Shown here: positions 4,332 through 33,767 of the stretch, one piece after another
Numbering within the stretch: the first letter of the stretch is position 1
How the letters are laid out: the number at the start of each line of letters is the position of its first letter
NCBI GenBank assembly: GCA_947371645.1
Contig: CANBQJ010000001.1
Location: forward strand, 1-53,584
Reading direction: 5' to 3'
DNA length: 53,584 nucleotides
Source of the DNA: Burkholderiales bacterium
GTDB lineage: Bacteria; Pseudomonadota; Gammaproteobacteria; Burkholderiales; Burkholderiaceae
Program-made: the position numbers and the translations under genes
The notes under the pieces: model-generated
Database searches by the model: none
Seen by the model: only the letters and a program-made list of their open reading frames with translations
What the model was told of the DNA's origin: nothing

Positions 4332-5258
4332 ATGGCGGGCGATCGGGTCAAGCTGCCCTGGTGGGGCCCCATGCGCGGGCCCTTTTTGCTGCTCACCCCC
4401 GCCTGCATGCTGCTGGGTGTGGCCTGTGCCTGGCTGGCCAGGCCGCCGGACATGCTGCCTTTGACCCTGTTGCTCAAGGCCTGCCTGGCCCTGGGCGCTG
4501 CACTCGGTGCCCACATCAGTGTCAACGCGCTCAACGAGTACGTGGATTTCCGCAGCGGCCTGGACGCGATGACCCAGCGCACGCCCTTCAGCGGCGGCAG
4601 CGGCACCCTGCCAGCGCATCCCGAGCTGGCCCGCTGGGCCTTGCTGTTGGGCTTGGGTGCCTTGGCCATGTCGGTGTCCATGGGCTTGGCCTTGCTGGCC
4701 TCCTGGCCCACCGCCTGGCTGCAGCTGGCCCCTCTGGGTCTGCTGGGCGTGGCCCTGGTGGCCGGCTACTCGCCCTGGATCTCGCGGCACCCCTGGCTGT
4801 GCCTGGTGGCGCCGGGGCTGGGCTTTGGCGCCCTGATGGTGGCCGGGACGGCCTGTGCGCTGCTGGGGCATCACACGGTGGCGGCCTGGTGGGCGGCGGC
4901 CGTGCCCTTCTTGCTGGTCAACAACCTGTTGTTGCTCAACCAGTTCCCCGACGTGGAGGCCGACCGTGCGGTGGGGCGACGCACGTTGCCCATCGTGTGG
5001 GGGCGGCCGTCCTGCGTCCGCTTGCTTTGGGTTCAGTGGGCCCTCGCTTGGGGCTGCTTGCTGGCCGGCGTGGCCTGGGGTGTGTTGCCAACCGGTGCCT
5101 TGTGCGGCTTGATCACGCTGCCGCTGGCGTGGCGCACCGCAGCCGGGGTGCATCGGCACGCCGACGAGCTGCCGGCCTTGCTGCCGCACCTGGGTGCCAA
5201 TGTGGCGGTGACCCTGCTGACGCCAGCCCTGATGGGTCTGGGCATGCTGTTGACTTGA
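4332..5258 (+). CDS. UbiA-superfamily prenyltransferase
   Basis: The 308-residue integral membrane protein has about eight or nine hydrophobic segments. The two Asp-rich motifs of the family are visible: NALNEYVDFRSGLD near residue 59 and NQFPDVEADRAVGRRTLP near residue 204. These bind prenyl diphosphate through magnesium. The pattern is closest to MenA-like or uncharacterised UbiA members rather than UbiA itself, so the acceptor (naphthoate, quinone or other) cannot be read from the sequence. It follows spoT by three bases and converges on greB with only a nine-base gap. Confidence 0.85.
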   Translation: MAGDRVKLPWWGPMRGPFLLLTPACMLLGVACAWLARPPDMLPLTLLLKACLALGAALGAHISVNALNEYVDFRSGLDAMTQRTPFSGGSGTLPAHPELARWALLLGLGALAMSVSMGLALLASWPTAWLQLAPLGLLGVALVAGYSPWISRHPWLCLVAPGLGFGALMVAGTACALLGHHTVAAWWAAAVPFLLVNNLLLLNQFPDVEADRAVGRRTLPIVWGRPSCVRLLWVQWALAWGCLLAGVAWGVLPTGALCGLITLPLAWRTAAGVHRHADELPALLPHLGANVAVTLLTPALMGLGMLLT

Positions 5259-5267
5259 ACGGTGGGC

Positions 5268-5831
5268 TCAGTGGCTGACAGGTGGGGCGGGGTAACTCAC
5301 CGAGATCACCTCCAGCCGCTCAAGCCCGCCCGGGGTCATCAGCTGCACCTCGTCGCCCTCGCGGGATTTGATCAGCGCGCGGGCAATGGGTGACACCCAG
5401 CTCACCTCGCCTTGCAAGCTGTCGACCTCGTCGATGCCCTTGATGGTGATGGTGCGGCTCACGCCGGCCATGTTCTCGTAGGTCACGGTGGCGCCAAAGA
5501 AGACTTGCGTTTTGCCGTGGTGCACGCTGGGGTCGGCCACTTCGGCGATGTCCAGGCGCTTGGTCAGGAAGCGGATGCGGCGGTCGATTTCGCGCAGGCG
5601 CTTCTTGCCGTAGATGTAGTCGCCGTTCTCGGAGCGGTCGCCGTTGGAGGCCGCCCAGTGCACGATCTCCACGATCTTGGGCCGCTCGGCGTCGATCAGG
5701 TTGATCAACTCGGTGCGCAGCCGGTGGTAGCCCTCGGGGGTGATGTAGTTCTTGCCGCCCGCAGGCAGTGGGGGCAGCGACAGCTCGTCGTCGTCCTCGT
5801 CACTGGACTCTTTGGTGAAGGCCTTGCTCAT
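5268..5831 (-). CDS. greB: Transcription elongation factor GreB
   Basis: The 187-residue Gre factor rescues backtracked RNA polymerase by stimulating transcript cleavage. The N-terminal coiled coil carries the acidic tip (DRSENGDYIYGKKRLREIDRR at about 79-99), and the C-terminal FKBP-like domain ends with GDEVQLMTPGG. Length and basic character in the coiled coil favour GreB over GreA (about 158 residues). An acidic extension (ESSDEDDDELSLPPLPAGG) precedes the domain and is common in Burkholderiales. The gene is transcribed away from the signalling operon; the two share the 163-bp region 5832-5994. Confidence 0.93.
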   Translation of the reverse strand: MSKAFTKESSDEDDDELSLPPLPAGGKNYITPEGYHRLRTELINLIDAERPKIVEIVHWAASNGDRSENGDYIYGKKRLREIDRRIRFLTKRLDIAEVADPSVHHGKTQVFFGATVTYENMAGVSRTITIKGIDEVDSLQGEVSWVSPIARALIKSREGDEVQLMTPGGLERLEVISVSYPAPPVSH

Positions 5832-5924
5832 GGGGCTGGATTGTGCCTAAAAGTGGCCGTGCGGTATCTCACGCTTTGGGCCCCTTTGTGTGGGCCCCAC
5901 GTCTGGCGTGTGGATTTGATCGCG

Positions 5925-5950
5925 CAAAAATGAAATCACGCAGCCGATAA
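5925..5950 (+). promoter_or_regulatory. Sigma-28 (FliA) promoter of the LOV signalling operon
   Basis: CAAA at 5925-5928, a 14-base spacer, then GCCGATAA at 5943-5950. The -10 element is identical to the enterobacterial FliA consensus, and the spacing equals that of the fliS promoter in this window (CAAG-N14-GCCGATAA). Transcription would start near 5957, about 38 bases before the ATG at 5995. This places the signalling operon with the late flagellar genes. The match is seen directly; use by FliA is inferred. Confidence 0.75.
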
Positions 5951-5994
5951 GCAAGGCAAGCTGTTCACAGCAACCCCTGTTGTCGAGGTGTGAG

Positions 5995-6702
5995 ATGTCT
6001 CAAGTGATTCCTCTGGGCCCTGCGGCCCGCATGCTGACCACCCGCGAGGCCGCGTTGCGCCTGGGGGTGTCCTTGAGGACGGTTCAGCTGTGGGTGGAGG
6101 CCGACATCCTGCCCGCCGCGCGCACGCCGGGTGGTCACCGCCGCATCCCCTACAACGCCGTGGAGGCCCTGGCCTTGAGCACGGGGCTGGGGGGTGAACC
6201 CATCTCCCGCAGCCAGGCCCGCGAGCTCAGCCGGCAGGCCGATGCCCAGGGTGGTCGCTTCAACGACGCTGCACTGACGGCCGGCACGCCCGGCCGCGAT
6301 GCAGGAAACCAGCCGCAGCCTCTGGATGTGCTGCTGGTGGCCGATGACCAGGACTGGCAACAACGCTGTGCCGAGGCGATGTCGCCCTATGGCAATGCCG
6401 TGAAGCTGCGCTACGCAGAGACGGGCTACCTGGCCCTGCTGCAGATTGGCCAGAAGGCACCTGACCTGCTGATCACCAACCTGGACCTGCCCGGCATGGA
6501 CGGCATGGCCATGTTGCGCACGCTGGAGCGCTGCGAAAGCATCAACCAGCTGCGCATCCTGGTGCTCACCCACCACGATGAACACGAAATCGCCCGGCGC
6601 GGGGGCTTGCCCATGGCTGCCGAGGTGATGCACCTGCCTGTCACCCCCGAATCTGTGGCGGTGCGGGTCGGCCGATGGCTATTGGGGCAGCGCGCCTCAT
6701 GA
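5995..6702 (+). CDS. MerR/BldC-like HTH protein fused to a degenerate receiver domain
   Basis: The 235-residue cytoplasmic protein starts with a MerR/excisionase-type winged helix (about 13-62; LTTREAALRLGVSLRTVQ, then TPGGHRRI). A Gln/Ala-rich linker leads to a receiver-like domain (about 109-232). The acidic pair is present (D117, D118), but the phospho-acceptor Asp is Asn162 (ITNLDLPGMDG) and the conserved Lys-Pro is Leu214-Pro215. Phosphorylation is therefore unlikely, and binding of a partner such as another receiver or kinase is a reasonable inference. The ATG at 5995 follows GAGGTG; one at 5980 lacks a good site. It is the first gene of the sigma-28 operon, 21 bp before the next. Confidence 0.85.
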   Translation: MSQVIPLGPAARMLTTREAALRLGVSLRTVQLWVEADILPAARTPGGHRRIPYNAVEALALSTGLGGEPISRSQARELSRQADAQGGRFNDAALTAGTPGRDAGNQPQPLDVLLVADDQDWQQRCAEAMSPYGNAVKLRYAETGYLALLQIGQKAPDLLITNLDLPGMDGMAMLRTLERCESINQLRILVLTHHDEHEIARRGGLPMAAEVMHLPVTPESVAVRVGRWLLGQRAS

Positions 6703-6723
6703 GATGAGATCTGGAACCCCGCC

Positions 6724-7869
6724 ATGAACGAAGCCTTCCGCATGCTGTTTGACCAGGTCACGAGCGGCGTGGTCTGGGTTCAGCGCAATGGTGTGGTCCG
6801 GTATGCCAACAAGGCCGCGGTGCAGATGACCCCGGTGATGCTGGGCCAGCCGATGATGGACCCGGTGGCCGAGCGCACCGTCAAGGCGGCAGGGCAGGAC
6901 ATGCTCAAGCTGCCCTTCCAGTTCGAGCTGACCACGCAGGAAGCGCACCCGGACGCCATCCGCGCCGTGGTCATCCCGGCGCCTGTCGGGCAGGACCTGA
7001 TGGTGGTGCTCAACAACGTCTCGCAAGAGCGCTGGTACTCGCAAGCGCTGGAAAACCTGATCGGCTACATCGACGCCGAGATGGCCTTGCCCATTGAGGC
7101 GCTCACCGAGAAGCTGCCGCTGACCGCGCAACTGGTGCTGCAGCAAGGCGCCATGGGCGAGTTGCAGGCCCTGGTGGACGAAGCGGCGATGCTGTCGGCC
7201 AAGCTGGGCAAGCTGCATGACCTGGTCTCGGTGTTCGGCGAAAGCGCCATCCAGCGCGATGAACGCATCTTGCTGCCTGGGCTCTTGCGTCAGGCCCTGG
7301 GCGAAGTGATGCCCCAGGCCCAGGCCCGCAACGTCACCGTGGCGGTGGCCAGCATCGACGATGACATGCCGGCCATTTACGGCAGTTCGCACTGGCTGGC
7401 CAAGGCCATGTCGGAATACCTCGAACAGTCCATCCGCAGTGCGCAGCCCGGTGGGGTCATCCAGCTGACGATACAGGCGTCAGGCACACGGGTGATGGTG
7501 CGTGCCCGCAACCAGGGGCTGTTCGTGTCCAACCACGATCGCCGCAACGCCTTCGTGCCCTTTGGCGTGGGCGACAGTGCCAGGCCGACGGGACCGCGCC
7601 GAGGGATCGGCCTGGCCTTGGCCCAACGCATCCTGGAGCAGCATGGGGGCACCGTGCGCATCGAAGACGAGTTCGACAGCGTCGACTTCGTGATGGAAAT
7701 TCCTGCTGGCGCCCCGGCCACGCAAGACGCGCAACTCAGCGTCGAGCAGGCGCAGCGCTACGCCCACGACATGTCCCAACTGATGGCGCGCAGCATGGCC
7801 CGCAAGGTTGCCGCGGTGTCGTCACCGGCACCGGCAGCGCCAGCCGCACCCACCGTGCTCAAGCCCTGA
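6724..7869 (+). CDS. Degenerate PAS-histidine kinase-like protein (no phospho-His)
   Basis: The 381-residue soluble protein has a PAS-like N-terminus (about 1-100), a helical region where a DHp domain should be (105-185), and a GHKL ATPase-like fold (about 200-330). The DHp H-box reads DAEMALPI where HisKA proteins have SHELRTPL, so the phospho-acceptor position is Ala118. In the ATPase domain the catalytic Asn is Gln235 (YLEQSIRS) and the DxGxG motif reads RNQGLF (Asn263), while G2 (RRGIGLALAQRI) is kept. Kinase activity is unlikely. The C-terminus is an Ala/Pro-rich tail. It lies 14 bp before the receiver gene, which suggests tight co-expression. Confidence 0.82.
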   Translation: MNEAFRMLFDQVTSGVVWVQRNGVVRYANKAAVQMTPVMLGQPMMDPVAERTVKAAGQDMLKLPFQFELTTQEAHPDAIRAVVIPAPVGQDLMVVLNNVSQERWYSQALENLIGYIDAEMALPIEALTEKLPLTAQLVLQQGAMGELQALVDEAAMLSAKLGKLHDLVSVFGESAIQRDERILLPGLLRQALGEVMPQAQARNVTVAVASIDDDMPAIYGSSHWLAKAMSEYLEQSIRSAQPGGVIQLTIQASGTRVMVRARNQGLFVSNHDRRNAFVPFGVGDSARPTGPRRGIGLALAQRILEQHGGTVRIEDEFDSVDFVMEIPAGAPATQDAQLSVEQAQRYAHDMSQLMARSMARKVAAVSSPAPAAPAAPTVLKP

Positions 7870-7883
7870 ACAGGAGACACACC

Positions 7884-8261
7884 ATGACGCAGCGCATCCT
7901 CATCGTCGAAGACCAGTCCGACATCTGCAAGCTCATCCGCATGACGCTGGAGTTCAGCGACTTTGAAATTCACGAAGCCCACGATGGCGAGACCGGCTTG
8001 AACCTGGCGCGCGCACTGCAGCCCCATGTCGTGCTGATGGACGTGATGATGCCCGGCTTGCTCGATGGCTACCAGGCCTGTGCCCGCATCAAGCAGGACC
8101 CGGCGCTGCGCCACATCCGCGTGATCATGCTCACCGCACGCGGCCAGGCCAGCGACATCGATGCCGGGCAAGCCGCCGGCGCAGACGCCTACCTGGTCAA
8201 GCCATTCAGCCCGCTGGAGCTCATCGATCGCGTGGAGGGCATGGCCGGTCTGGCCGCCTGA
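7884..8261 (+). CDS. Single-domain CheY-like response regulator
   Basis: The 125-residue protein is a stand-alone receiver with all key residues: acidic pair in VEDQ (E9, D10), phospho-acceptor D53 (LMDVMMPG), Thr in MLTAR and K106 in YLVKPF. There is no output domain, so it must act by binding a partner or as a phosphate carrier. One extra Leu in MPGLLDG is a small oddity. AGGAGA precedes the ATG. It sits between a dead kinase and an intact LOV kinase in one operon, so its likely phosphodonor is the LOV kinase. A flagellar switch or the HTH protein are possible targets. Confidence 0.93.
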   Translation: MTQRILIVEDQSDICKLIRMTLEFSDFEIHEAHDGETGLNLARALQPHVVLMDVMMPGLLDGYQACARIKQDPALRHIRVIMLTARGQASDIDAGQAAGADAYLVKPFSPLELIDRVEGMAGLAA

Positions 8262-8283
8262 GCCCGCCTCGCTGGAGGCCGCC

Positions 8284-11058
8284 ATGCCCCACGCCGACCC
8301 CCAGGTCGAGTTGCCTGCAGCCGTGCTGCAGGTGATGGGCCGCCTGGAGCGCTGGACGGGGCGTTTGACGCTGTGGCGAGCGGTGCTCAACATCCTGGCG
8401 GTGGGCCTGCTGATGACGGCGATGGCGGTGGGCTCGGTCTGGTGGGCCGAGGAGCACCGTCAGGCCCAGGCCTTCGACGTGGCCGTGCGCCGACTTCAGG
8501 ACCTCGTGCAGTCTCGCATCGACCACGAATCGGCCCTGGTGCACCAACTGGCCGATTGGGCAAGTTACCAATCGTTTGACGGCAACGGCTCGGCAGCCTG
8601 GCAATCCAGCGGTGTGTTGCTCATCGGTCGCGATGCGCTCAAGGCCGGGCTGCTGCCCAAGCTCGTGGGCCTGGCCCCCACGCGCACCGACACGTTGGCC
8701 AACTGTCTGCGCCAGACCAGTGAGGCCTTGCCGGCAACCCTGTGCAGGGTGTTCGGGGTGGGCGCCCAGCCAGAGGCGTGGTTCCTGGTGGAACGGGTGA
8801 GGCAGCCAGGTGATGGCTGGGTGATCAAGCCCCTCGACGGGCTGGACCTGTCCTGGGTCCTGGACGATGGCTTGTACTGGAAGGTGCAGGCCAGGATGCT
8901 GGCGCCGCAGGAGCCGCGCGCGGGCGGCCTTTGGCGCCCGAACCAGGGCGATGCGAGACCGCCGCGAGGGGTGGACGTGAAGCTGGCCCAAGGCAGCCTG
9001 CACCTGACCATCCTGGCCGAAGCCCGGCGGCGCACCTGGCAAGACACCTGGACCCGCTACACGGCCATGTTCATCGCGGCCAGTGCAGGCTTGCTGTTCA
9101 CCCTGGGCGGCCTTCACGTCTACCTGATGCTGATTTCCACACGCAAGCGTGCACGGGACATGGCCATGGAGATGTCTGCCACCTTGCAGCGCACGCAATC
9201 TCGCAACCAGGCGGTGATGGACACGGCGCCTGACGCCATCGTGCTGACCGACGAGCAGGGCTTCATCCAGTGGTGCAACCAGGCCACGATCAGCATCTTT
9301 GGCCGCACACAGGAGGGCCTTCAGGGCAAGCGCATCGCCGAGATCCTGCCGGAGTTGGGCGGCATCGACATGGCCGCCTGGTTCCACGATTTCGGTTTTT
9401 CGAACCGCGTGATCGGCCGTGAAGCCCACGGCTTGCGCAATGAGGGCACCGTCTTTCCCGTGGCCTTGTCGGCCAGCCGCGTGACGCTGGAGGGAGAGAC
9501 CATCCAGGCGCTGTTCGTGCGTGACACCACCGATGCCAAATGGGCCGAGCAGGAGTTGCTGCTGCGCGACCGGGCGCTGGCCTCGTCGGCAGACGGCGTG
9601 GTCATCACGTCCATGACCTTGCCCAACCAGCCCATCATCTACGTCAACCAGGCCTTCGAGCAGATCACGGGCTATGCCTCGCACGAAGTCCTGGGGCTGA
9701 ACTGCCGCCTGCTGCAGCGCGAGGACCGCGACCAGCCCGCCTTGACCCAGATGCGCGAAGCCATCACCCAGGGCAAGCCGTGTCAGGTGGTGTTGCGCAA
9801 CTACCGCCAGGACGGCAGCCTGTTCTACAACGAGCTGGCGATCTCGCCGGTGCTCAGCCCCGAAGGCAAGGTGACGCACTACGTGGGTGTGCAAAACGAC
9901 ATCACCGAACGCATGGCAGCCGAGCAGGTGCTGGCCTTGCGCACCGAGCGCCTCAATGCCGTGTTCGAGCTCAGCCCCGATGGCTTCGTGGTGTTGGACA
10001 AGCGTGGCGAGGTCAGCATCGTCAACCCGGCGTTCGAGCGCATGACCGGCATGTTGGCAGGCGACCTCGTGGGCCAGTCGCTGATGGCCTTCGAAGAGAA
10101 CCTCATGACGCGATGCGCGGTGAGCGACATCGCAGAACGTTCGGTGGCGGCCGCCATCGACGGGCAGCCCGCCGCCCTGGCCGATGGCACGCAGGCCCAG
10201 CGGCGCTTGCTGCACCTGCATGCACCTCAGTCCCGCACCCTGTTGCAGCGTGTGCGCCATGGCGACCACGACAACGAGACCGTCATGTACTTCCGCGACG
10301 TGACCCACGAGCTGGAGGTGGACCGCATGAAGAGCGAGTTCCTGGCCATGGCCGCGCACGAGCTGCGCACGCCCATGGTCAGCATCTTTGGCTTCACCGA
10401 GCTGCTGCTCAAGCGGCCCTTCTCCGAAGAGCGGCGCCAGGAGGTGCTGGGCACCATCCACAAGCAGGCCAGCATCCTGATCAACCTGGTCAACGAACTG
10501 CTGGACCTGGCCCGCATCGAGGCCCGCCGCGGCAAGGACTTCAACCGCAGGCTGCAGCCCATTGGCCCCATCCTGGAACAGGCGCTGGACGGCCTGAAAG
10601 TGCCTGGCGACCACCGCATGGTCAGCTTGCACCTGGACACGCCCGATGCCCTGGTCTGGGCCGACACCGACAAGCTCAGCCAGGCGGTGCTCAATGTGCT
10701 GTCCAACGCCTACAAGTACTCGCCCGGTGGGGGCGAGATCCATTTGCGCCAGCGGCTGGACCCGGCCATGCAGCGCGTGCTCGTGGAGGTCGAAGACCAT
10801 GGCGTGGGGATGAGCCCGGATCAAAGTGCGCGTGTGTTCGAGCGCTTCTTCCGGGCGGACCCCTCCGGCAACATCCCCGGCACGGGCCTGGGCATGAGCC
10901 TGGTCAAGGAAATCATGGACCTGCATTGCGGCGACGTGCAGGTGCGCAGCGCCCTGGGCGAGGGCACCACGGTGGCCCTGAGTGTGCCTGGGCAAGACGG
11001 GGTGGCCGCCTTGCCCCCCGCAGACAAGGGTGCAAGGCCGAAGGAAAGCACGGGCTGA
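8284..11058 (+). CDS. Membrane LOV-domain histidine kinase
   Basis: The 924-residue sensor kinase has a membrane helix (about 30-50), a periplasmic CHASE4-like region with WASYQSF, a second helix (about 262-285), then PAS, LOV, PAS, HisKA and ATPase domains. The second PAS is a LOV domain: it has GLNCRLLQ with the photoactive Cys474, then NYRQDGSLFYNEL and VGVQNDIT, matching the flavin-contacting Asn, Asn and Gln. The kinase core is intact: H692 in AAHELRTPM, N-box NVLSNAYKYS, DHGVGM and GTGLGMSL. The start at 8284 follows GGAGG; the frame opens earlier but overlaps the receiver gene. It is the last signalling gene of the sigma-28 operon. Confidence 0.9.
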   Translation: MPHADPQVELPAAVLQVMGRLERWTGRLTLWRAVLNILAVGLLMTAMAVGSVWWAEEHRQAQAFDVAVRRLQDLVQSRIDHESALVHQLADWASYQSFDGNGSAAWQSSGVLLIGRDALKAGLLPKLVGLAPTRTDTLANCLRQTSEALPATLCRVFGVGAQPEAWFLVERVRQPGDGWVIKPLDGLDLSWVLDDGLYWKVQARMLAPQEPRAGGLWRPNQGDARPPRGVDVKLAQGSLHLTILAEARRRTWQDTWTRYTAMFIAASAGLLFTLGGLHVYLMLISTRKRARDMAMEMSATLQRTQSRNQAVMDTAPDAIVLTDEQGFIQWCNQATISIFGRTQEGLQGKRIAEILPELGGIDMAAWFHDFGFSNRVIGREAHGLRNEGTVFPVALSASRVTLEGETIQALFVRDTTDAKWAEQELLLRDRALASSADGVVITSMTLPNQPIIYVNQAFEQITGYASHEVLGLNCRLLQREDRDQPALTQMREAITQGKPCQVVLRNYRQDGSLFYNELAISPVLSPEGKVTHYVGVQNDITERMAAEQVLALRTERLNAVFELSPDGFVVLDKRGEVSIVNPAFERMTGMLAGDLVGQSLMAFEENLMTRCAVSDIAERSVAAAIDGQPAALADGTQAQRRLLHLHAPQSRTLLQRVRHGDHDNETVMYFRDVTHELEVDRMKSEFLAMAAHELRTPMVSIFGFTELLLKRPFSEERRQEVLGTIHKQASILINLVNELLDLARIEARRGKDFNRRLQPIGPILEQALDGLKVPGDHRMVSLHLDTPDALVWADTDKLSQAVLNVLSNAYKYSPGGGEIHLRQRLDPAMQRVLVEVEDHGVGMSPDQSARVFERFFRADPSGNIPGTGLGMSLVKEIMDLHCGDVQVRSALGEGTTVALSVPGQDGVAALPPADKGARPKESTG

Positions 11059-11137
11059 AGCGCGGCGCTTTTGGGCGCAAGATGCCGGGGCCTGTCGTAG
11101 ACGTGGGGTGTTCAGGCCACCCGGTTTCGGAGCAGAT

Positions 11138-11878
11138 GTGGAACAAGAGCCGCAAGGCAAGGGTGGGCAAACCTGGCGTTGGTTGTTGCTGGGCATGTAC
11201 CTGCTCATGATTGGCGCCCTGGCCTGGCTGTGGCGTGACCCCGCCACGCGGCAGTGGCTCAACACCGACACGCTCACGGCCTGGGGGCGCCAGTTGCTGG
11301 CCTTGCCCCTGGGCCCGTTGGTGGTGATGGCGGGCTATGTGCTGCTGGTGATGATGGGGGTGCCGGTGCTGGCCCTGATCACCGTGGGCACCTTGATCTT
11401 CACGCCCTGGCCCGGCATGGCCTATGCCATGGCCGGCATGCTCTCTGGTGCGGTGGTGACCTACTGGCTTGGCCGCTTCACCAGCGCGACCGCCATGGAC
11501 AGGCTGACCTCAGGCAAGCTGGCCCGACTGGCCACGCAGCTGCGGCACCGCGGACTGCTGGCCGTGGTGGTCGTGCGAGTGTTGCCGCTGGCCCCGTTCA
11601 TCGTGGTCAACCTGCTGGCGGGCGCCTTGCGTGTGCGCTGGCGCGACTATGTGCTGGGCACCTTCCTGGGCCTGATCCCTGCAACCGTCTTCATCCCGAT
11701 GATGGTGGGCAGTGCGTCTGCGGCCTGGAAGGCCCCCAGCCCTGGGCGCATCGCGGCCCTGGTGGCCACGGTGGCCTTGGGCGCAGCGGTCAGTGTGTGG
11801 CTGCGCAGGCGGCTGGCCAAGGTGGCGCACGACGTGGAAGTCGAAGAGGCTGCGCAGCCAGCGGCCGAGCCGCATTGA
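11138..11878 (+). CDS. VTT-domain (DedA/TVP38-like) membrane protein
   Basis: The protein of about 246 residues has five or six membrane segments and the VTT core: FTPWPGMAYAMAGMLSGAVVTYWLGRF, then VVRVLPLAPFIVVNLLAGALRVRWRDY, then GLIPATVF. Such proteins are linked to lipid scrambling or membrane homeostasis. No in-frame ATG lies before the first helix; I propose the GTG at 11138 with GGAG upstream. The ATG at 11136 is out of frame. The frame stays open back into the preceding kinase gene. It may be the fifth gene of the sigma-28 operon (79-bp gap) or separate. The stop lies inside a 13-bp tandem repeat. Confidence 0.82.
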   Translation: MEQEPQGKGGQTWRWLLLGMYLLMIGALAWLWRDPATRQWLNTDTLTAWGRQLLALPLGPLVVMAGYVLLVMMGVPVLALITVGTLIFTPWPGMAYAMAGMLSGAVVTYWLGRFTSATAMDRLTSGKLARLATQLRHRGLLAVVVVRVLPLAPFIVVNLLAGALRVRWRDYVLGTFLGLIPATVFIPMMVGSASAAWKAPSPGRIAALVATVALGAAVSVWLRRRLAKVAHDVEVEEAAQPAAEPH

Positions 11879-11910
11879 GTGCATGCATTGAGTGCGTACA
11901 TTGAGTACGT
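11872..11910 (+). repeat. Three tandem 13-bp repeats at the VTT gene stop
   Basis: The units are GCATTGAGTGCAT, GCATTGAGTGCGT and ACATTGAGTACGT, at 11872-11884, 11885-11897 and 11898-11910. The first contains the TGA stop of the VTT gene (11876-11878). Each unit carries ATTGAGT, so later units offer further stops in other frames. No function is evident. Confidence 0.8.
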
Positions 11911-11950
11911 GTGTCGGGCGGGCGCAGACCAGGCAAAAAAGCGGGGCCGG

Positions 11951-11988
11951 AAATAGAAAAAGGTCAGCAAGTTTGCACTTGCTGACCT
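11951..11988 (-). terminator. Intrinsic terminator of tRNA-Arg
   Basis: On the minus strand a perfect 12-bp stem (11977-11988 with 11961-11972) has a 4-base loop and is followed by TTTTCTATTT. GAAATAGA and TCTATTTC outside it (11950-11957 and 11991-11998) can extend the helix past a small internal loop. It starts 12 bp after the tRNA 3' end, so the tRNA is a one-gene unit. Confidence 0.88.
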
Positions 11989-11999
11989 CATCTATTTCT

Positions 12000-12076
12000 T
12001 GGTGCGGCTGGCAGGATTCGAACCCACGACCCCTTGGTTCGTAGCCAAGTACTCTATCCAACTGAGCTACAGCCGC
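12000..12076 (-). tRNA. tRNA-Arg (anticodon ACG)
   Basis: The 77-base tRNA folds as a full cloverleaf. The acceptor GCGGCTG pairs with CAGCCGC, followed by discriminator A and an encoded CCA. The D arm holds AGCTCAGTTGGATAGAGT. The anticodon stem CTTGG/CCAAG encloses CTACGAA, giving anticodon ACG (read as ICG for CGU, CGC and CGA). The T arm has GGGTTCGAATCC. It stands alone 56 bp after hemY with its own promoter and terminator. Confidence 0.97.
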
Positions 12077-12086
12077 CGAGAAGAGA

Positions 12087-12116
12087 AATATAGCAGGTTT
12101 TTTGATGACTTGTCAA
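12087..12116 (-). promoter_or_regulatory. Sigma-70 promoter of tRNA-Arg
   Basis: On the minus strand TTGACA (12111-12116) is a perfect -35, and TATATT (12087-12092) is a near-consensus -10, 18 bases apart. The tRNA begins 10 bases past the -10 element, close to the expected start site. It is the clearest housekeeping promoter in the window and lies just after the hemY stop. Confidence 0.85.
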
Positions 12117-12132
12117 ATGCCTGCAGAAATTT

Positions 12133-13389
12133 TCACCAATTTGCCTCAGGCAGCGCGGCCATGCGGAAGTAGCGGGCGGCTTCTTCCGGCTGTTGTTCGC
12201 GCTCTGCCATCAGGCCCAGTTTGGACCAGGCCATGCGGCGGCGGTCCATGTCGAGTTGCAAGTCGTTGGCGGCAGACAGCAGCATGCCGCGTGCCTTGCC
12301 CCACAGCTGGCGTTCGGCCAGGGCCAGGCCCACGGCCAGCGCCAGCGCCGGGTGGCGCAGGGCGACGGGCGTGCAGGCGTCCAGGCGTGGCAACCAGTCG
12401 GGCTCCAGCCCCAGCAGGCAGTGGTTCATGGCACGGGCCATGGCGTCCACCCCATCGGGCGCCAGTTCGTGGATGCGGTCCCACATGGGGGCCAGCCACT
12501 GGCGGGCTTCTGCCGGGGCGCCCAGGTCGGCCATGCGGCGTGCGGCGTGCGCCACCACGATGGCGTCGCGGCGGTCGCGGATGTCCAGGGCTTGCCACAG
12601 GGCACGCATCTGGTCGGCGTCGCGGGCCGACGACAACAGTTCGCTGGCCAGGGTGCGCAGCAGGCCTTCCGCGGCGCCGGCCGTGAAGCCCTGGTGCTTG
12701 GCCAGCATGCGCGCGGTCTTGAGGGCTTCCAGCGGCTGGCGGGCCAGGCGTGTGGCCTGCAGCTTCAGGCGCAGCGCCTGGGTGCGGCGGGCCACACCCG
12801 GCGGCAGGTCGGCGAGGTCGCGCAGGGCGCGCATGGCGTCGCGGTCGTCCAGGGCGCATTCGGCGGCCAGCAGGCGGGCGCCTTCTTCGGCCGGGCGCGG
12901 CTTGGGCGTGAGGCGGGCCAGGTCAAGGGCGCGCTGAAGGTGCTCGTCGCGGCGCTTGCGGTCTTGCAGGCGGTGCAGGCTGCCGGCCGACAACAGGTGG
13001 GCCATGGCGGCAAATTCGGCGTCCAGGGCCAGCTCGGGCGTGTCGGCGGCGATGCCCACAGCCTTCTGGCAGGCCTTGTGGGCGCGGGTGTAGCGGCCGG
13101 CCATGTACAGGGCCAGTCCTTCACGCAGGGCGGCCTGAGCCAGACGGTCACGCTGGCTCACGCGCCAGCGCTTGGCGCGCTCTGGCAAGGCGAGCAGGCC
13201 GTCGAGGCCGCGTACCAGGGTGTAGATGGCCAGGAAGAGCACGATCAGGCCGATGATGAACAGGTTGAGCGAGAGGTCCACCCGCCAGCCCATCCAGTAC
13301 AGCGTGACCAGGCCATCGTTGGCGCCGAGGGCTGTGGCGCCCACCACGGCCACGACGGCGAGCAAAAGAAGCCAGACGATCGTTCGCAT
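12133..13389 (-). CDS. hemY: HemY-like tetratricopeptide membrane protein
   Basis: The 418-residue protein has two N-terminal membrane helices (about 2-22 and 40-62) and then a long run of TPR-like helices. The start MRTIVWLLLLAVVAVVGATA and GLVTLYWMGWRVDLSLNLFII are characteristic of proteobacterial HemY_N proteins. This HemY is not the Bacillus protoporphyrinogen oxidase. Its role, probably membrane organisation of late haem synthesis, is poorly defined. It is the last gene of the hemC-hemD-hemX-hemY run, 17 bp after hemX. Confidence 0.88.
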   Translation of the reverse strand: MRTIVWLLLLAVVAVVGATALGANDGLVTLYWMGWRVDLSLNLFIIGLIVLFLAIYTLVRGLDGLLALPERAKRWRVSQRDRLAQAALREGLALYMAGRYTRAHKACQKAVGIAADTPELALDAEFAAMAHLLSAGSLHRLQDRKRRDEHLQRALDLARLTPKPRPAEEGARLLAAECALDDRDAMRALRDLADLPPGVARRTQALRLKLQATRLARQPLEALKTARMLAKHQGFTAGAAEGLLRTLASELLSSARDADQMRALWQALDIRDRRDAIVVAHAARRMADLGAPAEARQWLAPMWDRIHELAPDGVDAMARAMNHCLLGLEPDWLPRLDACTPVALRHPALALAVGLALAERQLWGKARGMLLSAANDLQLDMDRRRMAWSKLGLMAEREQQPEEAARYFRMAALPEANW

Positions 13390-18167: not shown

Positions 18168-18195
18168 TTATCGGCACCACCCTTCACAGCTTGAA
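18168..18195 (-). promoter_or_regulatory. Sigma-28 promoter of fliS-fliT-ycgR
   Basis: On the minus strand TTCAAG (18190-18195), a 14-base spacer counted from CAAG, then GCCGATAA (18168-18175). The -10 element is an exact consensus match. The fliS ATG is about 35 bases further on. It is the cleanest FliA promoter of the flagellar cluster and the reference for calling the others. Confidence 0.85.
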
Positions 18196-18244: not shown

Positions 18245-19561
18245 TCAGGAGACTGCAAGGGCTTGACGAAGCGGCTCAGCTGATGCAGCACTGGGCACGG
18301 TGTACTGGTCCAGCAGGAGCTGGCGGTTGCGTTGCACAGCGGCCTCGCTGGTCTTCAGACTGGCCGAAGGCGCTGAGGCCGATGCGGGCAAGGGCGCCGC
18401 GTCGTTGGTGGCCGGCATCGCCGTGGCCAGCGTTGCAAAGAGCCGCTGCCCGGTCTGGCGCAGCTCAGGTGTCCAGGTCACATCGCGCTGCTGCACGCCC
18501 TGCTGCGCATCCCAACTCAAACCGATGGCTTGCCACGATGCCGCATCCGGGCCTGTCAGGCTGGCCCTCACTGTGTCCAGGACGCCTCGAGCCTCTTGCC
18601 TGGCTTGATCGACATTGCCTTCTCCGGCGGTGGCCACTTGCTGTGCCTGGCCTTGCAAATCGTGTATGCCGGCCACCAGCGACTGCAGGCGGTGCTTGAC
18701 GACGTCGTCGTCGGGCTTCACGTCCAACCGGGCAGTTTCGGCCGTGGTGCCTTGCAGGCTCAGCTGCAAGCCCGTGACCGGGTCGTCCACCACATTGGAT
18801 GCGCTGCGCAGCGTGCGGCCATCTACCGTCACTTGGGCATCCTGGGCGCTTTTCACCAGTTGCATGCCAGGGCCTGAACCGTCTTGGTCGGGGCTGAAGC
18901 TGAACTTTGACAGCTCGTTGACATGGGCCATGGCTTGCTCCGCACTGACGGGCTCGGCCTGGATGCGAAAGCCATTGTTTTCACCGCTGTTGGAGGCGCT
19001 GAGCAAGAGGCGGCTGCCTGTGGCGTCGGACACCACTGTGGCGGTCACGCCCACCCCGGCGGCGTTGATGCGGTCGCGCACACGTTCCAAGGTGTTGTCC
19101 TTGGGGCTCATGGTGACGTTCGCTTTGGGCCAGTTGGGGTTGGTGGCGAAGGTCGATGAGCCGCCGCTCCACTTGCCTACCTCGATGTTCAGGGTGCCGA
19201 TGCCGATGACGGTGGACAGCGAAGAAAACGTGGCGCTGGCCGTGACCTGTGTGTCGGCAAGGGCGTCCACCCGCACGTCGTGGCTGCCCGTGGGCGCGGC
19301 GTCTGCAGACGCCTGAACCTGATCCGGGGCGCTGGACTGCACCTTCTGGGCGTGCCACATGGCGATTTGCGCCATGCCTTGGATCGCATCGCGCACGACC
19401 ATGGTGGTGCCACGCAGGCGGCCAGTGCTGGAGATGCTGGCTTCGTCTTTGGACAGTGGCGGGGGCGCTGTGGTGGCCGCGCGTGGCACAGGAGCGGTCG
19501 TCGATACCAGCATTTGCTGTTCGACAACGTCTGCTTTCACCGTGGATGCGACCGACGACAT
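18245..19561 (-). CDS. FliD-like protein lacking the filament-cap assembly ends
   Basis: The 438-residue protein shares the central FliD fold: GIGTLNIEVGKW near residue 120, then LERVRDRINAAGVGVTATVVSDATGSRLLL, NNGFRIQA, and AQVTVDGRTLRSASNVVDDPVTGLQLSL. These align with GSGTLSF through NTFSTALTGISF of the neighbouring FliD. It lacks the N-terminal SGLDSNLIVSKLVDLERQ segment and the C-terminal amphipathic region that dock FliD into the filament tip. It therefore keeps mainly the outer head domains, with an unrelated Ala/Pro-rich N-terminus. It lies between fliD and fliS with its own FliA-type promoter. The function is unknown; an alternative cap part or adhesin is a guess. Confidence 0.8.
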   Translation of the reverse strand: MSSVASTVKADVVEQQMLVSTTAPVPRAATTAPPPLSKDEASISSTGRLRGTTMVVRDAIQGMAQIAMWHAQKVQSSAPDQVQASADAAPTGSHDVRVDALADTQVTASATFSSLSTVIGIGTLNIEVGKWSGGSSTFATNPNWPKANVTMSPKDNTLERVRDRINAAGVGVTATVVSDATGSRLLLSASNSGENNGFRIQAEPVSAEQAMAHVNELSKFSFSPDQDGSGPGMQLVKSAQDAQVTVDGRTLRSASNVVDDPVTGLQLSLQGTTAETARLDVKPDDDVVKHRLQSLVAGIHDLQGQAQQVATAGEGNVDQARQEARGVLDTVRASLTGPDAASWQAIGLSWDAQQGVQQRDVTWTPELRQTGQRLFATLATAMPATNDAAPLPASASAPSASLKTSEAAVQRNRQLLLDQYTVPSAASAEPLRQALAVS

Positions 19562-19644
19562 GACAAGACCCTAACTACTCCAGGGCCAGGCAGTGATGAG
19601 CGACGGCCACATGCCGCCACGTCAAACCTGGTGCCCTGTCCCCG

Positions 19645-19672
19645 ATTTCGGCCGGAAACGGGTCTGCTTGAG
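19645..19672 (-). promoter_or_regulatory. Sigma-28-type promoter of the FliD-like gene
   Basis: On the minus strand CTCAAG (19667-19672), 14 bases from CAAG, then GCCGAAAT (19645-19652). It agrees with the fliS promoter except for two bases in the -10 element. The start codon is about 80 bases downstream, giving a medium-length leader. Confidence 0.65.
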
Positions 19673-19690
19673 TCGAGCTTCGTGCCTATG

Positions 19691-21151
19691 TCACGCGCTC
19701 TTGTTCCATGCCGTGATCATCTGTGTCACGTACTGGCTTTGCGAGGTCAAACCCGCCATGGTCGTGTCCAGTGTGCTGTACTGCGCCCGCAAGCGTTTTT
19801 CATACAGCGTGGCACGGGTGTCCATGTCATCTTGTCTTTTCTGGTTGCTCTGGATGAGTTTGTTGAGGCCGGCAGTGCGAGACGCCAGGGTGCCGTCAAA
19901 GCTCAACAGGTTGTCGCCCAGGCTGCGCAGGCGCGCGGCGATGCCGTCATCCCCATTGCCGCTGCCGGATGCCGTGAACAATTTTTTCACTTCGGCCAGG
20001 TTGCCCATGGCCGTCTTCAGCTTGGCGCTGTCGACCGTGAGGCCGCCTGAGGTGCTCAGGGAAAGGCCCACAGCAGACAGCGTACCGAACACAGCCGATG
20101 CGGTGCTGCCCGAACCCAGCGCCGTGCGGAACTGGTTGAGGATGCCGACGGCGGTGGCGTCGCCCTGCAAGGGGCCGGCGGTCTTCGTGCTGTCGTCGTA
20201 CTTGGTGTCGGCGTGCAGCAGGTCTGACATGGTGGTGTAGGCCGTCGCGAAGTCGGTGATGGCCTTGGTGATGGCGTCCGTGTCTTGCGCCACGGTGACC
20301 GTTGCCGGCGTGCCGTTGGTGGCCTTGCCCACGGTGAACGAAATGCCCGTCAGCGCGGTGCTGAAGGTGTTGGTCGTCGACGTCAGCGAGACGCCGTTGA
20401 CACGCACCGCTGCATCTTGTGCACCCTGTGCCAGGTCCGTGCCCAGGCTGCCGTTCTCAGGGTCATAGGCAAGGGACGACAGGCCGGCGTTGTCGGTGTT
20501 GACACCGTCGCCCGTGTCGGTGGCTTGTATCCGAAAGCCATTGGCCGCGCCAGTGTTGGACGAGGTGTAGGTCAGGCGTGCGCCCGCGCTGTCCACGATG
20601 ATGGCCGCCGTGACGCCTGCGTTGGCTTTGTTGACCTTGTCGCGGATGGCTTCCAGTGTGTCGGTGGCGTCGATGGCCACGCTCACGGCTGTGCCGCTGC
20701 CGCTGAACGCACCGTTGGTCCAGGTACCTGTCTGGAAGCTCAATGTGCCCGAACCGATGGTGTTGGTGGACGCGCTGGTGGCCGTTTGGGTCACCACCGT
20801 TTGCGCGGAGGCCAGCTTGTCCACGTTCACGTTGTAGTTGCCTGCGGCAGCGCCACCGGACGTGGAGAAGCTCACGGCAGACGCGTCCGACGATGTCGCC
20901 GACATGCTGTTCCAGAAGGTTGGGTCGGCGACCTTGCGCGCGGCGTCCCGAAAGGTGGTCACGGCGGACTGAACCGCACCGTAGGCGGACACCTGGGTCT
21001 GGATCTTGTCGGCTGCGGCCTGCAAGGCCGTGATGGGCTGGCGTTCGAGGTCGACCAGCTTGCTGACGATGAGGTTGGAATCGAGCCCGCTGGTGCCGAT
21101 GCCCAAAGAGCTGATCGTGCCTGACCCGGCGGCGACGGAAGAGGTGGCCAT
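19691..21151 (-). CDS. fliD: Flagellar hook-associated protein 2 (filament cap)
   Basis: The 486-residue protein is a complete FliD. The N-terminal docking part SGLDSNLIVSKLVDLERQP and heptad region lie at about 19-75, the head domains are rich in Thr/Ser/Gly, and FliD_C ends with YEKRLRAQYSTLDTTMAGL and QSQYVTQMITAWN. FliD pentamers cap the growing filament and promote flagellin folding. The C-terminal export region is present, unlike in the neighbouring paralogue. A FliA-type promoter lies between it and the upstream flagellin gene. Confidence 0.95.
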   Translation of the reverse strand: MATSSVAAGSGTISSLGIGTSGLDSNLIVSKLVDLERQPITALQAAADKIQTQVSAYGAVQSAVTTFRDAARKVADPTFWNSMSATSSDASAVSFSTSGGAAAGNYNVNVDKLASAQTVVTQTATSASTNTIGSGTLSFQTGTWTNGAFSGSGTAVSVAIDATDTLEAIRDKVNKANAGVTAAIIVDSAGARLTYTSSNTGAANGFRIQATDTGDGVNTDNAGLSSLAYDPENGSLGTDLAQGAQDAAVRVNGVSLTSTTNTFSTALTGISFTVGKATNGTPATVTVAQDTDAITKAITDFATAYTTMSDLLHADTKYDDSTKTAGPLQGDATAVGILNQFRTALGSGSTASAVFGTLSAVGLSLSTSGGLTVDSAKLKTAMGNLAEVKKLFTASGSGNGDDGIAARLRSLGDNLLSFDGTLASRTAGLNKLIQSNQKRQDDMDTRATLYEKRLRAQYSTLDTTMAGLTSQSQYVTQMITAWNKSA

Positions 21152-21196
21152 GGTTGCAACTCCAGCACGATGAAGGACGGTTGAGGCTCAAACACC

Positions 21197-21220
21197 TGAG
21201 TCCGGGAGGGCCCGGACTCA
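21197..21220 (-). promoter_or_regulatory. Perfect 10-bp stem-loop between flagellin and fliD
   Basis: TGAGTCCGGG (21197-21206) pairs perfectly with CCCGGACTCA (21211-21220) around a 4-base loop. No T-run follows on the minus strand (GGTGTTTGAG), so it is a poor Rho-independent terminator. From the promoter at 21225-21252 transcription should start near 21218, putting the hairpin at or near the mRNA 5' end. It may end flagellin transcripts, protect a 3' end, or stabilise the fliD message. Confidence 0.6.
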
Positions 21221-21224
21221 TTGG

Positions 21225-21252
21225 GTTTCGGTCGCTGGCCGCCAATCTTGAG
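21225..21252 (-). promoter_or_regulatory. Sigma-28-type promoter of fliD
   Basis: On the minus strand CTCAAG (21247-21252), 14 bases from CAAG, then ACCGAAAC (21225-21232). The -35 and spacing equal those of the fliS and FliD-like promoters; the -10 element is weaker. It lies in the flagellin-fliD gap. Confidence 0.55.
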
Positions 21253-21264
21253 TGACAGCCTTTT

Positions 21265-22122
21265 TTAGCCGCCCAGCAGCTTGAGGACCTGCTGCGGCAA
21301 CTGATTGGCCTGGGCCACCATCGCGTTGCCAGCTTGTTGCAGGATCTGCGCTCGAGACAGGTTGGACGTTTCTACCGCGAAGTCGGCGTCCATGATCCGG
21401 CTGCGGGCTGCAGACTGGTTCTCAGATGACACTTGCAGATTGGAGATGATGGCGTCGAACCGGCTTTGCGTGGCGCCGTAGATCGCGCGTTCGCTGTTGA
21501 CCACATCCAGCGCCTTGTCGATGTTGTTGATCACATTCTTGATGTCACCCGTTGTGGCCCCAGAGCCGATCGACGTCGTTGTCGCCGTGACCGACACGAT
21601 GCTCGTGTTCGTGGCCATGTCGGTGGTGGTGACCGTGATGATGTCGTTGGCCGAGGTGTTGGCGCCAATCTGGAAGACCCGCGCGGTGGCCGTGGCGCCT
21701 GTGCTGCCCAGGATGTTCTGGCCGTTGAACGTGGTGCCTTTGAGCACGCGCTGGATTTCAGCGCTGAGCTGCTGGAACTCCTTGTTCAGCGAATTCTTGT
21801 CGTCATTGCTGTTGGTGGAGTTGCGCGACTGCACCGCCAGCTCCCGCATGCGTTGCAGCGCGTCGCTGACCTTGCCCAGCGCGCCTTCTGCGGTCTGCGC
21901 CAGCGAGATGCCATCGTTGGCATTGCGCATGGCCACGCTCATGCCACGGACCTGGGCGTTCATGCGTTCAGCGATGGCCAGGCCGGCGGCGTCGTCCTTG
22001 GCAGAGTTCACCCGCAAGCCAGAAGACAGTCGCTGCATGGAGACAGACAGCGACGACTGCGACATGTTCAGGTTGCGCTGAGCGGTCAGCGAGTTCAAGT
22101 TCGTGTTGATCGTCTGAGGCAT
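21265..22122 (-). CDS. fliC: Flagellin (copy 1)
   Basis: The 285-residue flagellin has conserved D0/D1 ends: [25 protein letters not shown] and [19 protein letters not shown] at the start, and [43 protein letters not shown] at the end. The central variable domain is short (about 140-195), so it is a small flagellin without a large D2/D3. It is closely similar to the second copy along its whole length, with most changes in the centre. It lies downstream of copy 2 on the same strand, past a terminator. The central Thr/Ser-rich part offers O-glycosylation sites. Confidence 0.96.
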
Positions 22123-22257
22123 ACAGCACTCCTAAAGAATCGGTTGACTCCCGGCTTCCTGCGCCAGGCCTTCAGTTCTGCAATGGCCTGAAGGGTGGGT
22201 ACAACCTTTGGCCTGTGAATGAATCTTCGGATGAATCCTGCCGCGACAAAAGTTTGA

Positions 22258-22285
22258 TAAACGGCCTGAACAAGGCCCTGTTTTG
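22258..22285 (-). promoter_or_regulatory. Possible sigma-28 promoter of flagellin copy 1
   Basis: On the minus strand CAAAA (22281-22285) precedes GCCGTTTA (22258-22265); the spacer is 15 or 16 bases depending on which A is counted. The -10 element differs from GCCGATAA at two or three positions, so this is the weakest of the set. It would give a leader of about 130 bases. I saw no better candidate in 22123-22290. Confidence 0.4.
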
Positions 22286-22296
22286 ATCTGGAAATG

Positions 22297-22320
22297 AAAA
22301 AGCCGCCCCGGAGGGCGGCT
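22297..22320 (-). terminator. Intrinsic terminator after flagellin copy 2
   Basis: On the minus strand AGCCGCC (22314-22320) pairs with GGCGGCT (22301-22307) around a 6-base loop and is followed by TTTTCATTTC. It lies 30 bp past the copy-2 stop and separates the transcripts of the two flagellin genes. Confidence 0.85.
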
Positions 22321-22349
22321 GAGCAGCAATGCCTGCTGAATGGGGCTGA

Positions 22350-23204
22350 TCATTGCAGCAGCTTGAGCACCTGTTGGGGCAACTGGTTGGCCTGGGCAAT
22401 CATCGCGTTGCCGGCCTGCTGCAGGATCTGGGCTCGAGACAGGTTGGCCGTTTCCACCGCGAAGTCGGCATCCGTGATGCGGCTGCGGGCAGCGGTCTGG
22501 TTTTCGCTGGAGACCTGCAGGTTGGAGATCACCGAATCGAAGCGGCTTTGCACGGCGCCGTACATGGCGCGTTCGCTGTTGACCTTGTCGATGGCCTTGT
22601 CGATGTTGTTGATGACGCCCTTGATGTCAGAGGCGTTCGTGCTGCTGTCGATCACGGCGGTGGTGGCGGTGATGGACGTGATGGTGGTGTTGGTCGCCAT
22701 GTCCGTGGTGGTCACGGTGATGGTGTCGCTGGCCGTGGTGTTGGCACCGATCTGGAACAGGCGACCGGTTTGGGTCGCACCGGTGCTGCCCAGAAGATTC
22801 TGGCCGTTGAACGTGGTGCCCTTGAGCACACGGTCGATTTCAGATGCCAGCTGACGGAATTCCTTGTTCAGAGATTCCTTGTCGCTGCAGCTGTTGGTCG
22901 AGTTACGTGCTTGAACCGCCAGTTCACGCATGCGTTGCAGCGAGTCGCCTACCTTGCCCAAAGCGCCTTCTGCGGTCTGGGCCAGGGAGATGCCGTCGTT
23001 GGCGTTGCGCACCGCGACGTTCATGCCCTTGACTTGCGCATTCATGCGCTCGGCAATGGCCAGACCGGCGGCGTCGTCCTTGGCGGAGTTGACACGCAGG
23101 CCCGAAGACAGGCGCTGCATGGAGGTGGCCAGCGAAGCCTGAGACATGCTGGTGTTGCGCTGTGCGTTGAGCGACAGCAGGTTGGTGTTAATCACTGAAG
23201 GCAT
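22350..23204 (-). CDS. fliC: Flagellin (copy 2), with one cysteine
   Basis: The 284-residue flagellin has the same layout as copy 1, with D0/D1 ends [20 protein letters not shown] and [19 protein letters not shown] and a short Thr-rich centre ([14 protein letters not shown]). Residue 106 is Cys in [11 protein letters not shown], where copy 1 has NDD; flagellins very rarely contain cysteine. It has the stronger FliA promoter and its own terminator, so it may be the major or independently controlled filament protein. Tandem duplication of one ancestral gene is the simplest origin of the pair. Confidence 0.96.
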
Positions 23205-23388: not shown

Positions 23389-23479
23389 ATCCATGTGCGC
23401 TTTAGGTTCGTGAGAAATTGCAGAGGGAAATGATGTGTTTTTGTCCTGCAACTCCCAAGCCGCCTCCAAGGGGCCCAAA

Positions 23480-23517
23480 CCTAGACTGGCCGCATCCCTC
23501 GTGTCACCTTTCAGGAG
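23480..23517 (+). promoter_or_regulatory. Upstream element shared by two glycosyltransferase genes (copy 1)
   Basis: CCTAGACTGGCCGCATCCC (23480-23498), 10 bases, then TTTCAGGAG (23509-23517) just before the OGT-like ATG. The GT2-fusion gene at 25584 has the same order: CCTAAAGTTGGTCACATCCC, 10 bases, TTTCAGGAG. CATCCC, the spacing and the ribosome-binding block are identical. It does not match FliA, sigma-54 or sigma-70 consensus well. A shared promoter or translational element is inferred. Confidence 0.45.
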
Positions 23518-23522
23518 TGCGC

Positions 23523-30734: not shown

Positions 30735-33767
<3,033 letters not shown>

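Follow-up and report, generated by a model that had tools for sequence, protein, structure and literature searches.

Four co-directional genes, g1 to g4, form a conserved unit in a 53,584-nt stretch of Burkholderiales DNA (GenBank assembly GCA_947371645.1, contig CANBQJ010000001.1, forward strand), referred to here as the window. Within that unit the pair g2-g3, a pseudo-histidine kinase followed directly by a single-domain receiver, is the invariant core across the 35 loci compared; g1 is a DNA-binding protein with a disabled receiver and g4 a membrane histidine kinase with a LOV domain. The genes span 5995-11058 with intergenic gaps of 21, 14 and 22 nt, in agreement with the original prediction, made from the sequence alone, of four tightly spaced genes. 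The starts of g1 and g4 were set at the ATG that follows a likely ribosome-binding site; the program that listed the open reading frames (ORFs) gives earlier starts. The features discussed below are as follows.

5922..5935, strand not assigned: element E, GCGCAAAAATGAAA in the window, defined by its conservation in the greB-g1 gap
5924..5950, + strand: sigma-28-like site, GCAAA...GCCGATAA, from its position weight matrix score and the register of the local flagellin promoters
5995..6702, + strand: g1, HTH_17/MerR-type domain (residues 13-59) and pseudo-receiver (from about residue 112), Asn162 (6478-6480) at the phospho-site
6724..7869, + strand: g2, pseudo-histidine kinase with PAS, DHp, CA and C-terminal helix, Ala118 (7075-7077) at the phospho-His position
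7884..8261, + strand: g3, single-domain receiver, catalytic residues intact, Asp53 (8040-8042)
8284..11058, + strand: g4, membrane PAS-LOV-PAS histidine kinase, LOV Cys474 (9703-9705), phospho-His692 (10357-10359)
5268..5831, - strand: greB, transcription elongation factor (Pfam GreA_GreB), the divergent neighbour and boundary of the unit
11138..11878, + strand: g5, membrane protein, the neighbour after g4, from its ORF and BLAST context; start codon uncertain

The 35 loci comprise 28 found by scanning species genomes for the g2 family, six from an order-wide search, and the window. A 29th scan locus, L029, was removed from the family as unrelated, with only 18% identity. Twenty loci including the window make up a close group (Aquabacterium, L017 and L018) and 15 are more distant. 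In all 35, g3 follows g2 directly, and in 34 a PAS-type kinase lies after the pair on the same strand; the first matching kinase stretch begins 26 to 2869 nt past g3 and its sensor part is variable. g1 is upstream on the same strand in 23 loci and nearby on the opposite strand in seven; it was not found beside g2-g3 in the stretches fetched for L022, L023, L028, L107 and L112. greB was found in 19 loci, all of them in the close group (19/20, L011 being cut by a contig end). The full order of the window, with greB pointing away from g1-g2-g3-g4, recurs in Aquabacterium, in Sphaerotilus hippei (L018) and in a Burkholderiaceae metagenome-assembled genome (MAG, L017), and a match to g1 is present in 34 of 42 Aquabacterium genomes, four of the matches being partial. 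Conservation of the four genes together, proposed at the outset as a check on the system, is therefore borne out in the close group. The spread across Burkholderiales that had also been envisaged is not. With at most five candidates per genome scored, full-length g2 was recovered in at least 7 of 399 genomes of the order, the search centre being one of the seven; 344 of the 399 gave some match to g2, mostly ordinary kinases over about residues 107-330. A class sample of 369 genomes, scored in the same way, gave full-length g2 only in the search centre.

That g2 is kinase-like and lacks a phosphorylatable histidine had been predicted, and Ala118 does occupy that position; in the window the N-box Asn is replaced by Gln and the G1 Asp by Asn as well, so that g2 lacks the residues expected of an active histidine kinase. 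Pfam gives a weak PAS_8 match and HATPase_c, and no HisKA match at an E-value of 0.1. The phospho-His column holds A, R, T, S, I, D, L or E, and never His, in 35/35 loci (the g2 of L112 is only loosely aligned, with His residues close to the column). Judged from these alignments, g2 is an old pseudo-kinase family and not a product of recent decay, since the histidine is missing from the site at every locus. The acidic residue after the phospho-site and the Pro of the H-box are kept in nearly all loci. Some distant g2 proteins keep the N-box Asn or the G1 Asp, and that of L110 has both (N, D) at the aligned columns. The predicted structure consists of a PAS domain (residues 14-98), a DHp hairpin (100-172), a CA domain (180-328) and a long C-terminal helix (334-365), with a mean pLDDT of 73 and a pTM of 0.49 and lower confidence in the DHp and the C-terminal helix. 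The stretch QAQRYAxD in that helix is among the most conserved of the family. PAS, DHp and CA without the phospho-His are the fold of a DivL-type pseudo-histidine kinase, and structure and profile searches with g2 return histidine-kinase cores, DivL included; RetS is among the profile matches (E = 3e-9).

The adjacent g3 is a Response_reg domain alone. The catalytic set is EDDTK or DDDTK in all 35 loci, and the intact receiver of the original prediction is thus confirmed with all five catalytic residues. By score, g3 is closer to PhoB/PleD-type receivers than to CheY.

g1 matches HTH_17/MerR and Response_reg (5.4e-12) in Pfam, and the key positions of its receiver read A-D-N-T-L in the window, which makes it a pseudo-receiver. 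The prediction of a MerR-like helix-turn-helix (HTH) with a dead receiver was correct, as was the statement that two members of the operon, g1 and g2, lack the residues needed for classical phosphotransfer. All 20 loci of the close group lack both the first acidic residue and the Lys, and their Asp position holds N, H, D or T; the Asp is retained and the other catalytic residues are lost in L005, L017 and L018. Outside the close group ten g1 loci, e.g. L025 and L109, have an intact catalytic set (acidic pair, D, T/S, K). We infer from this distribution that the change ran from intact to dead, as a loss. Seven closest pairs of g1 receivers (dS 0.14-0.37) were used for the ratio of nonsynonymous to synonymous substitution rates (dN/dS); six of them, from four clades, gave 0.02-0.13, and the L017-L018 pair gave 0.68. 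The HTH offered nothing to count in these pairs, and distant pairs were disregarded on account of saturation. The low close-pair ratios suggest that the dead receiver is still constrained and not freely decaying. Among 23 close g1 sequences, invariant stretches were found in ETGYLALLQIG and around LPGMDG..MLRTL.R, which by analogy would be the alpha-2 and beta-3/alpha-3 regions, those named as likely functional in a 2025 review of pseudo-receivers (PMC12632262).

The last gene, g4, has the domain order PAS/LOV-PAS-HisKA-HATPase with complete HisKA and HATPase_c domains. The membrane LOV histidine kinase with an intact core is thereby confirmed, the two hydrophobic segments at the N-terminus having been read by eye from the sequence. 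Cys474 lies in NCRLLQ, the similarity to solved bacterial LOV domains reaches 9e-36, and the Asn/Gln positions of the flavin contacts were judged by eye from the alignment. Gating of g4 by blue light, or by flavin redox state, is probable in the close lineage, where 18 of the 20 loci retain the LOV cysteine (L002 has Gly and L018 has Phe). The light sensing of the original prediction is probable for the window and is not universal. Among the 15 distant loci the cysteine is kept in seven; Leu takes its place in L022 and L023, and no LOV domain was found at the aligned place in L025-L028, L109 and L111. The Cys-less LOV-like domains (L022 at 6062, L023 at 10531, L002 at 10332, and the g4 of L018) are possible flavin redox sensors. 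In L109 (4910-7904) and L111 (4930-7915), both on the reverse strand, g2-g3 are followed directly by HD-GYP-type and H-NOX genes; in other lineages the core may be linked to nitric oxide and cyclic-di-GMP. A kinase also adjoins the opposite-strand g1 in L025-L027, L109 and L111; this would suit an ancestral state of two linked two-component pairs, as a reading of few loci.

The site ahead of g1 comprises CAAA at 5925-5928, a 14-nt spacer and GCCGATAA at 5943-5950. The local sigma-28 consensus is T(C/A)AAG and GCCGAWAW with 15-16 nt between the first four bases of the former and GCCG, and it was taken, with the scoring matrix, from 13 hand-picked flagellin/FliD-region sites of the window and relatives (an earlier matrix held four). 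Against 17.7-19.9 for those 13 training sites the window site scores 13.0, a value reached by 1.4% of random 220-bp pieces. Its -10 box is perfect and in the right register; its -35 box (GCAAA, also in register) is weak, scoring 1.6. The 'near-consensus FliA promoter' claimed for the operon therefore needs correcting: its -10 half stands, and its -35 half is weak. The box GCCGATAA occurs twice in the window, the second copy at 18168 (reverse strand) lying within a TCAAG-N14-GCCGATAA site of the flagellar cluster.

Upstream regions were compared for 34 loci, ie the window, 30 of the 34 genus matches, and L012, L017 and L018; L011, where the contig ends inside g1, and L024, which is too distant, had been excluded from the first upstream sets. 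The g1 upstream scores were 18.7 for L140, 19.5 for L141, 19.5 for L142, 15.5 for Sphaerotilus, 13.0 for the window and 12.7 for L017. L140-L142 have full -35 and -10 consensus and score at the level of the flagellin sites; the g1 proteins of L140 and L141 are about 57% identical to that of the window. Scores of 12 or more were obtained for 6/34 upstream regions, compared to 1/34 reverse strands and 2.6% of shuffles, and a -10-like box was present in 20/34. Of two Rubrivivax-type loci where no g1 was found, L023 scores 15.1 upstream of g2 (12.1 on its reverse strand) and L022 scores 12.7; none of the remaining distant loci with a valid start exceeds 11.8 (L108, whose g1 starts near 5551, was excluded). 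FliA scored above the cut-off in 17/19 and 23/23 genomes; G011 gave no match of that strength, and in G018 the match is in two pieces. For the 14 upstream regions with no -10 box, FliA passed the cut-off in 13 genomes, and in the remaining one its match is split into two, so a missing FliA is not the cause of the missing sites. A genome-wide search of 10 genomes with TAAA-N12-17-GCCGATA gave 14 matches against 13 for the reversed-pattern control, and this form of the search was uninformative. FlgM was found in all seven genomes searched. In 7/7 genomes given, two flagellin genes share the contig of the operon at a distance of approximately 13-18 kb, as in the window, a proximity that general synteny could explain. 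FliA control is likely in some relatives and plausible in the window, and it is not general: the expectation of a GCCGATAA-type box and sigma-28 control in relatives is strongly supported in L140-L142, moderately in the window, Sphaerotilus and one Rubrivivax-type MAG, and not where the box is absent. Just upstream of g2 in L025-L028, loci with no sigma-28 site, a conserved AT-rich direct repeat (TTTGATA-TA-TTTGATA type) was seen by eye.

Element E overlaps the -35 region of the window site. It reads TCTCGCAAAAATGAAA in many relatives, G(C/A)AAAA(A/C)TGAAA is present in 29 of the 34 upstream regions, and its distances to greB and to g1 are variable. It is perhaps an operator of g1 or greB. A role solely as the sigma-28 -35 box was rejected, because in L142 the element sits on the downstream side of the sigma-28 site, as do its degenerate versions in L140 and L141, and because CAAA is 12 nt from GCCG in several relatives. 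The exact 12-mer has 12 copies in 12 genomes; nine genomes carry it, with three extra copies. These three share no setting by eye and no further convincing copy was seen in the window, so a genome-wide operator was also rejected. The ATG inside the element is 8 nt from the g1 start in four relatives. A leader ORF from that ATG (MKSRSR* in the window) was discarded for this reason and because the codon is CTG in three relatives and frames and lengths vary.

We favour, tentatively and at a little below an even chance, a sensory module built on the g2-g3 pair in which the signal passes from g4 through g3 and g2 to g1. g4, LOV-gated in this lineage, would set the phosphorylation of g3. Phosphorylated g3 (g3~P) would dock on the DHp of g2, giving g2 the reader role that DivL has for DivK~P, and the ensuing change in g2, involving its PAS, its CA and the conserved C-terminal helix, would be passed by protein contact to g1. 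In this lineage the receiver of g1 would serve for binding only, and contact with g2 would alter the hold of g1 on DNA. Expression of the operon may at first have coincided with that of the late flagellar genes, a timing suggested because some more divergent relatives have a likely FliA promoter, and the operon may tune motility or the choice between swimming and settling; in many Aquabacterium this flagellar timing would have been weakened or replaced. The passage from g2 to g1 is the weakest step, and is based on co-conservation and on the dead but constrained g1 receiver. Relatives keep the four-gene set together and may therefore signal by regulated binding, which the original prediction had named as the likely mode and which is the most economical one for g1 and g2 as they stand.

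Several observations weigh against this model and its flagellar timing. The likeness of g2 to DivL is not specific; active kinases match as well or better, so the searches show fold and not function. g2 could act through g4 rather than g1, and the five loci with no g1 found beside g2-g3 mean that g1 is not the only possible target; nor does a second copy of element E mark a g1 regulon. Over 445 pairs (dS 0.1-1.3) the median dN/dS of the g1 receiver is 0.29, compared with 0.04 for the HTH, and some pairs that include L017 or L018 give values above 1, dS being saturated there. The LOV cysteine is replaced in L002, L018, L022 and L023. The sigma-28 training sites were chosen because they fitted the pattern, 14/34 upstream regions have no -10 box despite FliA, and L140 and L141 are close to each other, so that the strong sites represent two cases at most.

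If g2 did act on g4, the two would pair through their DHp helices and g2 would tune the kinase/phosphatase balance, with g1 merely co-expressed; RetS-GacS is the model for such kinase-on-kinase tuning. The DHp of g2 is retained and could dimerise, RetS is among its profile matches, the kinase follows the pair on the same strand at all but one locus, and in the stretches of five loci no g1 was found. We nevertheless regard this as unlikely, because g3 always adjoins g2 whereas the kinase varies in distance and sensor, which points to g3 as the direct partner of g2. Quite unlikely is a third arrangement, with g2 as a phosphatase or sink for g3~P and g3 itself as the output, e.g. acting on the flagellar motor like CheY. 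In its favour, nearly all loci retain the E/D and P of the H-box. Against it, the T/N position of the E-x-x-T/N phosphatase motif varies (L, A, D, Q, H, K, R, E, P or G, with N or T confined to L020 and L021), and g3 resembles PhoB/PleD-type receivers more than CheY. The phospho-His is described as not essential for HisKA phosphatase activity (PMC12632262), while DivL, the nearest studied analogue, is reported to stabilise DivK~P (PMC4211667).

Simple sequestration, in which the dead g1 receiver, g2 or both titrate g3 or g4, was the mechanism suggested originally. Dead receivers can act by protein contact according to the same review (PMC12632262), and the g1 receiver is constrained in close pairs; the strict g2-g3 pairing, the kept PAS and the conserved C-terminal helix point to a switch over a titrant, and make sequestration improbable. 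Highly improbable is a decaying two-component cluster with no special mechanism and the GCCGATAA box there by chance. Drift at the g1 Asp position (N, H, D, T), the upstream regions with no -10 box, and the single reverse strand in 34 that scores 12 or more, as does that of L023, would all suit it. Against it stand the retention of g1 in most genomes of the genus, the low close-pair dN/dS, the absence of the g2 histidine throughout the loci, and three relatives with sites as strong as those of the flagellin region.

The favoured contact model has its closest parallel in DivL of Caulobacter crescentus, which is described as having no kinase or phosphatase activity, as using the receiver-docking face of its DHp to bind DivK~P, and as needing its PAS domains for phospho-specificity toward DivK~P (PMC4211667). 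Like DivL in the circuit of DivK, DivJ/PleC and CckA-ChpT-CtrA, g2 combines PAS, DHp and CA with no phospho-His and has a lone receiver as its putative partner; there, and as proposed for the window, a working kinase charges the receiver and the circuit ends in a DNA-binding regulator (PMC4211667). Unlike DivL, g2 has Ala in place of Tyr at the phospho-site, one PAS-like domain and a conserved C-terminal QAQRYA helix, and its N and G1 boxes are degenerate; no orthology is claimed. The window genes also differ from DivL-DivK in lying in one operon, with LOV on the sensor kinase and an HTH_17 output with a dead receiver. LovK-LovR and the Brucella LOV histidine kinase are LOV-gated kinases encoded with a lone LovR-type receiver, a pairing shared by the window operon; g4 differs as a HisKA membrane kinase with extra PAS domains, and a pseudo-kinase and an HTH pseudo-receiver are in the same operon. 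g1 resembles the aspartate-less pseudo-receiver regulators in lacking the phospho-Asp, the first acidic residue and the Lys while appearing constrained, and differs from them in its HTH_17/MerR-type output and in the series from intact to dead within one gene family. The H-NOX and HD-GYP genes beside g2-g3 in L109 and L111, which are not in the window operon, recall nitric-oxide signalling of the Shewanella Hno type. The original prediction knew of no described system with this composition, and no description of the four-gene composition or of the g2 family was found in the open-licence literature. Every part is of a known kind; the combination is undescribed in the literature searched.

Around the operon, a scan of 5800-11250 for sigma-70 promoters and intrinsic terminators gave no match, and the sole match in an Rfam scan of 5200-12200 was a tRNA at 12003-12076. 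g5, which we take to be of the TVP38/VTT type, was matched downstream of g4 in 15 of the loci L001-L019. The flagellar cluster of the window is at 18245-23204 (reverse strand), with flagellins at 21268-22122 and 22353-23204, FliD at 19691-21151 and a second FliD-like gene at 18245-19561; sigma-28 sites precede the first flagellin, the second FliD-like gene and an ORF below 18134. Divergent from the flagellins, at 23418-25487 (forward strand), is a Glyco_transf_41 (SPINDLY/OGT-like) gene with TPRs followed by another glycosyltransferase gene, perhaps for flagellin glycosylation. Further along, a hybrid histidine kinase with PAS, HisKA, HATPase, receiver and Hpt (30735-33767, reverse strand) adjoins a receiver protein with no other Pfam match (33782-34924, reverse strand).

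Taken together, the locus could represent a new Burkholderiales architecture, a rather doubtful but real possibility in our estimate. An old QAQRYAxD pseudo-kinase family with its own receiver would have used exchangeable sensors (LOV, H-NOX/HD-GYP, other PAS kinases), and Aquabacterium would have captured a g1 freed from phosphorylation, turning a phosphate light signal into a contact signal at g2, with timing that was originally flagellar. One operon of a freshwater bacterium holds both kinds of dead partner beside their live counterparts. The g1 family is a natural experiment, with receivers intact (L025, L109), with Asp only (L005, L017, L018) and with Asp lost (most Aquabacterium), and the series may show how a phosphorylation switch becomes one that works by binding; light could provide a clean input. 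Should the model hold, DivL-like logic would operate outside the CtrA network.

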